A DNA stretch of 64,000 bases from an uncultured Dehalococcoidia bacterium (GTDB lineage: Bacteria; Chloroflexota; Dehalococcoidia; Lucifugimonadales; Lucifugimonadaceae), in NCBI GenBank assembly GCA_958295935.1, contig OY282385.1, positions 186,001 through 250,000 on the forward strand, read 5' to 3'. Shown here in pieces: positions 3,766 to 47,501 of the stretch. Each line of letters starts with the position of its first letter. Position 1 is the first letter of the stretch. The position numbers and the translations under genes are program-made. Below the pieces are notes generated by a model, which saw only the letters and a list, made by a program, of their open reading frames with translations, did no database searches and was not told where the DNA came from.

Positions 3766-5613
3766 ATGGCATTTGGCCGCTTATGTTCACGCAGCCTTTG
3801 GGCTGCGGCGATTCTTCTATGTGGCAGCCTTTTCTTACTAGCCGCATGTGGCGGAGGCGATGCCGACCCCACAGCTACCACTGCGCCGGCAGCCCCAACC
3901 ACAGCTCCAGCAGCGCCAACCGCGATGCCTGCAACCGCAGTGCCCGCAACCGCAATGCCACAACCGACCAACACTCCAGCGCCGTCAAGCGGCGGAGGCG
4001 GAACCCTCGTAGTCGCCAACGACCTCATAGGGCCAAAGGTCTTCAGACCCTCGCTTATCACAGGCGGCGCTCACTCCGCTTTCGGACTTCAGGACTGGGG
4101 CTTCTACGACTTCCTGCTGCAAGCAGACCACTCCAATCCCCTCAACTTCGGAGAGGTCGGAACCTCCGGCATTGCAACCAGTTGGACGGTTGACGACAAC
4201 CAGACCGAAATCATCTTCACCATCCGCACCGACGCCGAATTCCACTGCGACGCAGGCGGAACCGTTGGGCCGGAAGACGTCGTGCACTCCTTCATGGAGA
4301 GTATGACCGAAGGCACGAAGAGCACCCGAGGCCCGGGCATCAAGCGGTGGGCGCCTACGTGGGAAGTGGTCGACGCCACCACCGTACGGGCCAACCTCCT
4401 GCCAGGAAAACTTGAACCCACCTGGAAACTCGCGCTCGCAAACAACGGCGGCGGAAGCATACCCATCGTAAGCAAGGCCCTCTTCGACCAGGGAGGGGAC
4501 GCAGACCTCACCACCCCATGCGGATCAGGCCCGTTCGAAATACAGGAATGGGTCTCCGAGGAGAAGGTCGTAGCTACACCCGTTCAGGACAACTGGCGGG
4601 CACAGCCGGAAATGATCGACGAACTCCAGGTCGTTCAGATCCCCGAAACCAACTCCAAGATAGCCGCTCTCAAGACGGGTGAGGTACACATGGCCAACAT
4701 CCCGCTCAAGTTCCTCGCAGACACCAAGGATGAAATACCCGGAAGCTGGGAACAGGCCACCGGAAAGTACCAGCCGCAAATCGTCTACTTCGCCGGTAAC
4801 TTCTGGGCCAAGCGAGCCTACAACTTCGAGGACGAGGCCGACATCTTCCCCAGGGAAGGGCTCAAGGCCGACGACGAACACCCATGGATCGGCAACCCGG
4901 ACGACGACGCCTCTATGGAGAGCGCACGCAAGGTGCGATGGGCAATGTCCATGGCGATCGACCGGGAAAAACTCAACGACAACGTGTTCAATGGACTCGG
5001 ACAGATCACCTACGCATACACCGACGTGCTGCCCAGCAGCCCGCTCTTCAAAGACGAGTGGACTGTTGACTACGACCTCGACGGCGCAAGGAGAATGCTC
5101 GCCGAGGCAGGCCACGCAGACGGCTTCGAACTTGACTTCTGGGTATCCCCGGACAACACCGCAGCCGTCGAGCCCGAAACCTTCGAGGCTATAGCACAGA
5201 TGTGGCAGGACATTGGCGTTCAGGCTTCCATCGAAAAGACCGTCTACGCCTCACGCAGGCCCACGCTGGTCGCAAGGTCGATAGACATACCCTTCGCTCA
5301 CCACACCTTCTGGTTGTCCGCCGACGAACCCAAGGGCGGCACCCTCGTGCCTACCGGCGGATTCAACCACGGTATCGAGCTGCCAGAGGAAATCGGCGTC
5401 ATCCGATACCTCAACATCTCGGAACCGGACCTGCAGACCAGAATCGACAACAACATCCGACTGCAGGACTACCTCAGCCACTGGCAATTGATGGCCGTCA
5501 CAGTCACGCTGCAACCCCACTGGCTCGTGCGCCCAGAGGTAGTGTCATGGGACCTCTACCAGCAAGCCTGGGCAGTCTTCAACTCCCCCGAAAGAGTGAA
5601 GATGCAGAACTAG
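3766..5613 (+). CDS. Peptide-type ABC transporter substrate-binding lipoprotein (SBP_bac_5 family)
   Basis: This is a 615-residue extracytoplasmic solute-binding lipoprotein. The frame is open further upstream, but the ATG at 3766 is chosen because AGAGGTG lies just before it and because it gives a clean signal peptide ending LLAACGGG (lipobox). A low-complexity Thr/Ala/Pro tether follows (about residues 25-75, ATTAPAAPTTAPAAP-like) before the folded domain. The body has SBP_bac_5 features: PKVFRPSLI near the start, the HCDAGGTVGPEDVVHSF block, and a C-terminal region with AMSIDRE-like AMAIDREKLNDNVFNG and the AEAGHADGFELDFWV block. It is followed by a strong hairpin and then its DppB and DppC genes, the usual order SBP-B-C. 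Ligand unknown; peptides or related oligomers are most likely by family. Confidence 0.93.
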   Translation: MAFGRLCSRSLWAAAILLCGSLFLLAACGGGDADPTATTAPAAPTTAPAAPTAMPATAVPATAMPQPTNTPAPSSGGGGTLVVANDLIGPKVFRPSLITGGAHSAFGLQDWGFYDFLLQADHSNPLNFGEVGTSGIATSWTVDDNQTEIIFTIRTDAEFHCDAGGTVGPEDVVHSFMESMTEGTKSTRGPGIKRWAPTWEVVDATTVRANLLPGKLEPTWKLALANNGGGSIPIVSKALFDQGGDADLTTPCGSGPFEIQEWVSEEKVVATPVQDNWRAQPEMIDELQVVQIPETNSKIAALKTGEVHMANIPLKFLADTKDEIPGSWEQATGKYQPQIVYFAGNFWAKRAYNFEDEADIFPREGLKADDEHPWIGNPDDDASMESARKVRWAMSMAIDREKLNDNVFNGLGQITYAYTDVLPSSPLFKDEWTVDYDLDGARRMLAEAGHADGFELDFWVSPDNTAAVEPETFEAIAQMWQDIGVQASIEKTVYASRRPTLVARSIDIPFAHHTFWLSADEPKGGTLVPTGGFNHGIELPEEIGVIRYLNISEPDLQTRIDNNIRLQDYLSHWQLMAVTVTLQPHWLVRPEVVSWDLYQQAWAVFNSPERVKMQN

Positions 5614-42573: not shown

Positions 42574-44109
42574 TTGCTAGCAAAAACAAAGTCCTCAGCA
42601 GTCGTGGGTCTCGACGGGTTCCTCGTCGAAGTGGAAGTCGATATATCGCCGGGCCTGCCAGCCTTCAACATCGTCGGACTGCCAGACAAGGCAGTACAGG
42701 AATCCAGCGAACGAGTACGCGCCGCGATCCGCAACTCCGGCGCCGAGTTCCCTATGCGGCGCATCACCGTAAGCCTGGCTCCCGCAGACGTCAGGAAGTC
42801 CGGACCCTCTTACGACCTGCCAATAGCCATCGGCATACTGCTCTCAACCGGGCAGGTCCCGGACAGCATCAACGGCTCCCTGCTGCTGGGCGAACTGGCG
42901 CTGGACGGCTCGCTAAGGGCTACCCAGGGCATCCTGCCAATGGTCGCAGTAGGGAAAGAGCGGGGCATCGAGAAGGTGTTCGTACCCGCCCCCAATGCAG
43001 CCGAGGCCGCCTTGGTGGAAGGCGTCAGCGTTACCCCCGTCACCGAACTTTCCCAGCTGGCCGGCCATCTCCGCTCGGAAACTATGATCCCCGCGTACAA
43101 GCCGGCTGAGACGAACGGCGCTTCGCAGTACAAACTGAACGGCAACCTCAAACGCGCCCCCGATCTCGCCGAAGTTCGCGGACAGGAAATGGCAAAGCGC
43201 GCCCTGGAGGTGGCCGCGGCAGGCGCGCACAACGTGCTCATGACCGGCCCGCCCGGCTCAGGGAAAACCCTGCTTGCGAGGCGTTTGCCCACCATCCTGC
43301 CCCCAATGACTCCCAGCGAATCCCTCGACGTCACCAAGATATACAGCGTGGCAGGGCTCTTGCCATCCGGAAGCCCACTGATCGACCAACGCCCGTTTCG
43401 CACGCCCCACTACACGATTTCTAGCGCCGGCCTCGTGGGCGGCGGCGCTATCCCGCGCCCCGGCGAGATCACCCTCAGCCATCGCGGCGTGCTCTTCCTG
43501 GACGAACTGCCCGAGTTCGGCCATTCGTCTCTGGAAGTGCTGCGCCAGCCCATCGAGGACAAACTCGTGACCATAAGCAGGGCGCAGGGCACCATCACCT
43601 TCCCGGCCAACTTCATGCTCGTCGGAGCCATGAACCCCTGTCCATGCGGCTACTACGGCGACACCGCCCAAACCTGCTCCTGCTCACTCTCCGCCATCTC
43701 GCGCTATCAGAGACGCATATCAGGCCCCTTGATGGACCGCATCGACATCTTCGTCGAGGTGCCGCGAGTGGAGTACGAAAAGCTGGTGAAGCCCTCCAAC
43801 TCTGAAAGCTCGGAGACCGTCAGACAGCGCATCACTGCCGCCCGCGAACTTCAGCACGAGAGATTCGGCAAGGGCGGCGCAGTCGCGAACGCCGAAATGG
43901 GGCCGGTCGAGGTCTGGGAACATTGCGCGGTCGAGGACTCGGCCCGCTCGCTTCTACAGATGGCCATGAAGCAGCTGAGCCTGTCGGCAAGAGGGTTTCA
44001 TCGCATCCTGAAAGTGGCCCGCACCATCGCCGACCTCGAAGGGCACGCCAAGATAGAAACCTCGCACTTGGCGGAAGCCCTCCAATACCGCCCGCGCTCG
44101 CCGCTCTAG
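42574..44109 (+). CDS. comM: YifB/ComM-family Mg-chelatase-like AAA+ ATPase
   Basis: This 511-residue protein starts with TTG at 42574, with GAGGTG upstream. The N-terminal Lon-protease-like domain (VVGLDGFLVEVEVDISPGLP, FNIVGLPDKAVQESSERVR) is followed by the AAA+ core: Walker A GPPGSGKT (225-232), the RTPHYTISSAGLVGGG insert, and Walker B GVLFLDELPEF (305-314). A Cys-rich segment NPCPCGYYGDTAQTCSCS and the C-terminal helical part ARGFHRILKVARTIADLEG complete it. ComM is a hexameric branch-migration helicase that aids integration of transformed DNA (family knowledge). The protein is intact. A decayed partial copy of its middle lies at about 47082-47345. Confidence 0.95.
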   Translation: MLAKTKSSAVVGLDGFLVEVEVDISPGLPAFNIVGLPDKAVQESSERVRAAIRNSGAEFPMRRITVSLAPADVRKSGPSYDLPIAIGILLSTGQVPDSINGSLLLGELALDGSLRATQGILPMVAVGKERGIEKVFVPAPNAAEAALVEGVSVTPVTELSQLAGHLRSETMIPAYKPAETNGASQYKLNGNLKRAPDLAEVRGQEMAKRALEVAAAGAHNVLMTGPPGSGKTLLARRLPTILPPMTPSESLDVTKIYSVAGLLPSGSPLIDQRPFRTPHYTISSAGLVGGGAIPRPGEITLSHRGVLFLDELPEFGHSSLEVLRQPIEDKLVTISRAQGTITFPANFMLVGAMNPCPCGYYGDTAQTCSCSLSAISRYQRRISGPLMDRIDIFVEVPRVEYEKLVKPSNSESSETVRQRITAARELQHERFGKGGAVANAEMGPVEVWEHCAVEDSARSLLQMAMKQLSLSARGFHRILKVARTIADLEGHAKIETSHLAEALQYRPRSPL

Positions 44110-46540: not shown

Positions 46541-47110
46541 ATGATTCTGCCAAAACATAACGACAAAACCATCCCCCCCGTTCCCATAGAAGAACGCCTG
46601 GGCGTCCTCGACCGCAGGCGCATCGAGGCGATGATCCTCGGCCCCGTCATCCGGGCCTATCAGGACGAGATCGGACGCGAGCAGGCCGCCGACGTAGCCC
46701 GACGAACCATCACCGGAATCGCCCGCGAGCAGGGCGCCGCCATGGCCGCAAAACTCGGAACCAACAGCCTGCGGGCCTTCGCCTCGAGCAAGGAACCGTG
46801 GCTCAGGAACGGCGCGCTTGAGATCGACGTGATCGAAGAAAACGACGACGCCTACGCCTTCAACGTCACCCGCTGCCGATACGCCGAGATGTACGAGGAA
46901 CTCGGCTTCCGCGACCTCGGCGAAGCCTTCTCCTGCACCAGAGACTTCGAATTCTCCAGAGGATTCAACCCCGACGTGAAGCTCACGCGCACCCAGACCA
47001 TCATGCAGGGCGCTTCACACTGCGACTTCCGATACGAACTGCCGCAACCGGCCAGCACGCAGACGGACAACGGAGAGGCCGCGGCAGACGCACGCAACGA
47101 GGCCCCATGA
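46541..47110 (+). CDS. L-2-amino-thiazoline-4-carboxylic acid hydrolase family protein
   Basis: This 189-residue protein shows features of the ATC hydrolase family, whose founding member opens 2-amino-thiazoline-4-carboxylate on the way to cysteine. Seen are a helical N-terminal part (RRRIEAMILGPVIRAYQDEI), a central FNVTRCRYAEMYEELGF, and the C-terminal Cys motif IMQGASHCDFRYEL. Many relatives have unknown substrates. The last 10 residues (EAAADARNEAP) do not belong to the family and match the comM reading frame EVAAAGAHN. The stop therefore lies inside a decayed comM copy, and the original C-terminus was altered by that insertion or fusion. No good ribosome site precedes the ATG at 46541, so the start is uncertain. 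Confidence 0.78.
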   Translation: MILPKHNDKTIPPVPIEERLGVLDRRRIEAMILGPVIRAYQDEIGREQAADVARRTITGIAREQGAAMAAKLGTNSLRAFASSKEPWLRNGALEIDVIEENDDAYAFNVTRCRYAEMYEELGFRDLGEAFSCTRDFEFSRGFNPDVKLTRTQTIMQGASHCDFRYELPQPASTQTDNGEAAADARNEAP

Positions 47111-47422: not shown

Positions 47423-47446
47423 CCCCCCCCCCCCCCCCCCCCCCCC
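47423..47446. repeat. 24-base poly-C tract upstream of the giant FN3 gene
   Basis: There are 24 consecutive C residues on the plus strand, ending 55 bases before the ATG of the giant gene. A small stem CGATTT-TTG-AAATCG begins at its last base. GAGG with an 11-base spacer precedes the ATG, so the tract lies in the leader or promoter region. Such tracts slip in replication and can switch expression, but a sequencing or assembly artefact (poly-G on the other strand) must be considered. Confidence 0.9.
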
Positions 47447-47501
47447 GATTTTTGAAATCGCGGAGGGAAGCATGTGACATGACCTTGAGGATTCTCTGAA
47501 A

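Follow-up and report, generated by a model that had tools for sequence, protein, structure and literature searches.

A pure run of 24 cytosines lies just upstream of a giant surface-protein gene in the 64,000-nucleotide stretch of an uncultured Dehalococcoidia genome analyzed here (the window), and it is likely that this run (C24) is a contingency, or phase-variation, tract that modulates expression of the gene through slipped-strand changes in its length. Replication slippage at C24 would alter tract length; with the tract placed in the promoter or 5' leader, transcription or the working of the leader would change in turn, and cells would then differ from one another in the amount of surface protein. 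We infer both that C24 slips in living populations and that expression is affected. C24 would also be one member of a genome-wide set of tracts, the others acting mostly as frameshift switches in genes for methyltransferases, glycosyltransferases and lipoproteins. The original prediction had weighed a switch against an assembly scar; the switch is favored by the tract set, by tracts upstream of orthologous genes and by a pair of paralogs in and out of frame, and the scar is disfavored by the single contig and by continuous coding sequence across tracts.

C24 and its surroundings

Both the placement of C24 and the 55-base gap to the ATG of the giant open reading frame proved exact in the sequence (Table 1), where the tract is read directly between gatgcataa and gatttttgaaatcg. 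The exact count of 24 is uncertain, given that every sequencing technology is prone to errors in the length of homopolymers. C24 is the sole C/G run longer than 7 within the window and the longest in the genome, a single contig of 2,750,180 bp. Six C/G runs of at least 14 were seen in this genome (lengths 24, 16, 14, 22, 17, 21), compared with about 0.002 expected when the run-length decay of the window is extrapolated to 2.75 Mb, and a rough extrapolation of the same kind gives about 2e-10 for runs of at least 24. A/T runs longer than 8 were absent from 254 kb of the genome, and no A13 run was present in the whole of it. C24 therefore has the form of a contingency locus, that is, a pure homopolymer far above chance length, and it has the corresponding placement, in a putative promoter or leader with 55 bp between it and the start codon of a candidate variable surface gene.

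The giant gene extends beyond the window, and its full length was pieced together from the window and one further locus (L036). The protein contains fn3 domains throughout, with two 1500-aa pieces matching fn3 at E values of 1e-165 and 1e-172, a signal-peptide-like N-terminus, a Pro/Thr-rich stalk, a C-terminal transmembrane anchor and a short basic tail. This domain layout suggests a surface-exposed protein with an adhesin-like role.

The spacer between tract and start codon contains the inverted repeat GATTTTTGAAATC (47447-47459), a GGAGG (47462-47466), a start-stop ATGTGA (47472-47477) and a 6-codon mini-ORF, MTLRIL (47479-47499), that stops 2 nt short of the giant ATG; a GAGG at 47487-47490 is a possible Shine-Dalgarno sequence. 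Translation through C24 into the giant reading frame is ruled out by the in-frame stop TGA at 47475-47477, indicating that C24 cannot switch the gene by frameshift and would have to act through the promoter or 5' leader, where, being outside the reading frame, its length would affect transcription or leader function, the candidate steps being factor-to-polymerase spacing, promoter geometry and the 5'-UTR. A promoter scan recognized no convincing promoter on either side of C24; its one match (9/12), which overlaps the giant-gene ATG, was taken as chance. Upstream on the same strand are a thiolase gene and the ATC-hydrolase-family gene, the latter with named relatives in uncultured Chloroflexota/Dehalococcoidia, including a SAR202-cluster MAG, so that the host probably belongs there too; no terminator-like site was found between this gene and C24. 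The decayed comM copy reported beside the tract is indeed there, matching its counterpart over ~190 bp; the counterpart lies within an intact-looking comM-like ORF (42574-44109) about 4 kb upstream of the copy, the comM identity being judged from the N-terminal sequence rather than by profile search.

Table 1. Features of the window, long C/G runs in its genome (G000) and sites of the AGAACNNNNGTNC module.
Feature	Position or locus	Strand	Basis or detail
L-2-amino-thiazoline-4-carboxylic acid (ATC) hydrolase family gene	46541..47110	+	Pfam PF14196, E 1e-38
Decayed partial comM-like copy, upstream of C24	47115..47305	+	76% identity to 43250-43430
C24 homopolymer tract, proposed hypermutable switch	47423..47446	+	Sequence; longest of six runs of at least 14
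55-bp spacer, tract to start codon	47447..47501	+	Sequence
Giant surface-protein gene, 5,951 aa	47502..64000, on past the window to ~65357	+	ORF and profile search
Giant surface genes with tract upstream			C24 at the 5,951-aa gene; C17 68 bp before a He_PIG protein of at least 2,088 aa
Split N6_N4 DNA methyltransferase	L031		Split by C16
N6_N4 methyltransferase, halves out of frame	L103		13-base run at SAM-binding motif
Methylase-HNH gene (N6_N4 methyltransferase)	L033		C22, 0.5 kb upstream
Split PMT-family glycosyltransferases	L035, L095		Split by runs
GSDH/cytochrome-c lipoprotein (dehydrogenase)	L032		Run at 5' end; profile
GSDH/cytochrome-c lipoprotein	L097		Run at 5' end; 83% DNA identity to L032
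No recognizable target	L093		One of the ten runs
AGAACNNNNGTNC module sites in G000	L032:4136, L095:4757, L097:4930
AGAACNNNNGTNC module sites in relatives	L106, L118, L124, L136, L192-L199

Long C/G runs in the genome and its relatives

Ten C/G runs of at least 13 are present in G000, nine of them at or within genes of classic contingency classes. Three of the ten are at N6_N4 methyltransferases, for which the genome has 19 matches, and the probability of this by chance is ~3e-4. The run at L103 (G13, 4934-4946) falls exactly on the Gly-rich SAM-binding motif (ADFV-GGGG-TTLSVAQ), splitting the frame. Shorter runs were also noted: a C11 inside one more methyltransferase ORF (L099) and, in the region L094:4680-4789, a C12 that is 9 bp past a tRNA-Ser gene and ~140 bp ahead of a putative lipoprotein ORF. 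A mismatch-repair defect was ruled out as the source of the tracts because mutS1 and mutL are both present.

For comparison we used four near-complete relatives in few contigs, belonging to the same order and to other families (G041, G046, G050 and G058). Each has 7 to 14 C/G runs of at least 13, located at genes for giant surface proteins, glycosyltransferase-like membrane proteins, lipoproteins and methyltransferases, most of these assignments coming from reading translated N-termini and one (L124) from a profile scan. In G050, two paralogous membrane-protein genes (L122 and L130) are 92% identical with identical flanks and differ in carrying C17 versus C21; the C17 paralog is a 681-codon open frame, and the C21 paralog is out of frame. 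At the level of sequence, this pair is a direct sign of slippage. Runs of at least 13 are absent from the single-contig relatives G011 and G039, and G029 has one, indicating that the trait is patchy.

A module consisting of AGAACNNNNGTNC followed by a G-run of 8-15 was observed at 18 listed places in G000 and the four relatives, either preceding genes for PMT-like glycosyltransferases, GSDH lipoproteins and DNA methyltransferases or at their 5' ends; a reversed-pattern control gave zero matches. Its perfect form, GAACAATTGTTC, is similar to a LexA box (GAACN4GTTC). The module may represent a portable switch cassette; a conserved promoter is the alternative reading. G046 also has a tandem pair of methyltransferase-like loci (L196, G046:C1:2669000-2676000) that are nearly identical and carry G11 and G12 behind almost the same flank. 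We find the case evenly balanced for a full 'phasome' in this lineage, probably an environmental one, in which adhesin, glycosyltransferase and lipoprotein switches would be combined with a phasevarion and with a reusable AGAACNNNNGTNC-G(n) module at the starts of unrelated families.

Orthologous genes and alternative readings of the tract

Orthologs of the giant gene, compared in alignment A1, are present in G046, in G050 and, as two copies, in G058; in G041 the gene is broken. The G046 ortholog (N-terminal 70% identity) has a G20 ending 57 bp before its ATG and the G050 ortholog (55% identity) has a G16 ~306 bp before its first start; on the coding strand both are G-runs, compared with C in G000. 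The two intact G058 orthologs lack any C/G run of at least 8 in the upstream DNA examined. Tract length thus differs among relatives (C24, G20, G16 and none), as at a contingency locus, the differences being between species and paralogs only. The poly-G upstream of orthologs suggests that the identity of the base on a given strand counts for less than length or geometry. A second giant gene, shared by three families at 64-83% protein identity, is preceded by C17, C15 and C20 at 68, 88 and 75 bp upstream in G000, G058 and G046, respectively, within diverged flanks. For a given gene, the chance that a tract falls in the 200 bp ahead of it is about 0.0005-0.001. Among orthologs of the first giant gene, the flanks of the tract are not conserved, the neighborhoods differ and no upstream neighbors are common to them; accordingly, synteny across C24 gives no support either way. 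A further pair, L107 of G046 and L139 of G058, was left out of the comparison, since 8,886 bp are 100% identical and L139 is on a small 14-kb G058 contig, which is probably mis-binned, or else reflects a very recent transfer.

Several of these observations run counter to a switch, namely the tract-less G058 orthologs, the ~306-bp distance in G050, the unconserved flanks, the patchy occurrence and the result of the promoter scan. The tract-less G058 orthologs, the dissimilar tract-to-start spacing among orthologs, a C24 with no promoter mapped, the target-less run at L093 and shorter runs without obvious role, such as the C12 next to tRNA-Ser, would suit a tract that is real and unstable yet neutral for expression, long C/G runs simply expanding and persisting wherever the intergenic DNA of this lineage tolerates them. 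We consider this improbable, however, because nine of ten tracts are at contingency-class genes, because many are intragenic, where neutral expansion would be harmful, and because upstream tracts recur at two giant genes across families. It is very unlikely that C24 is instead a structural element of DNA or RNA, such as a G-quadruplex or i-motif, a pausing site or a recombination hotspot. The occurrence of both strand orientations upstream of orthologs, by which sequence polarity is not critical, and the differing neighborhoods of the giant genes fit such an element, but the C17/C21 paralogs, the ortholog length differences and the frameshift placement at other loci all suit length switching. 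Furthermore, an inverted repeat like that beside C24 is not a general feature of the tracts (4/48 versus a 3% background, not significant), and a general adjoining palindrome was dropped from consideration.

The original concern that poly-G artefacts might have joined two contigs is justified for fragmented MAGs, four of which (G111, G174, G091 and G123) contain closely spaced opposite-strand C15 runs like short-read poly-G artefacts. Because these clusters resemble sequencing artefacts, tracts in fragmented MAGs, including those at contig ends, were left out as evidence. For C24, an artefact, whether a false join of unrelated DNA or a wrong length, has in its favor this resemblance and the differing upstream neighbors of the orthologs, by which synteny cannot vouch for the join, but it is very unlikely given clean, lone tracts in a single 2.75-Mb contig, coding sequence that continues across the tracts at L031, L095, L103 and L122 (the last in G050), and separate assemblies with a tract near the same gene at a chance of ~1e-3 each.

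Significance and comparison with known systems

Phase variation through simple repeats is regarded as a trait typical of pathogens with small genomes (PMC11475388), and a limited literature search found no paper treating phase variation and SAR202 together. The type of switch and its class of mechanism are already known; within that search, the lineage and the combined set of switches appear to be new. If a phase-variable C24 and its companion tracts are confirmed, environmental or symbiotic bacteria would also turn surface proteins, glycans and perhaps DNA methylation on and off at random, which could serve, for example, against phages. A direct test is possible on existing long-read metagenomes; in short-read MAGs, C/G tracts may be mis-assembled or under-counted.

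Phasevarions are DNA methyltransferases switched by simple sequence repeats (review PMC11475388), and in G000 and its relatives, likewise, C/G runs interrupt or adjoin genes for N6_N4 methyltransferases. This likeness concerns tracts other than C24, and the case differs in that the host is an uncultured member of the Chloroflexota in which switching of methylation and of a regulon is putative. In contrast to porA-type promoters of Neisseria, C24 seems longer than a simple -35/-10 spacer would allow. Those promoters phase-vary through poly-G (PMC3639595); C24 resembles them in being a C/G homopolymer that precedes a gene for a surface protein, and differs in that no -35/-10 pair was recognized flanking it. 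At the Bordetella fim3 promoter, transcription is set by poly-C length, such that loss of one C abolishes Fim3 (PMC10172299), and the fim3 tracts of B. bronchiseptica contain up to 22 C (PMC1891110). Unlike fim2 and fim3, C24 has no known BvgA-like activator site or -10/-35, its target is a 5,951-aa fn3 protein in another phylum and the orthologs of that target have poly-G as well as poly-C. Nevertheless, in both cases a long poly-C tract of similar length is upstream of a gene for a surface adhesin, putative in the case of C24 (PMC10172299, PMC1891110), and belongs to a C/G-biased set of tracts in a GC-rich genome.
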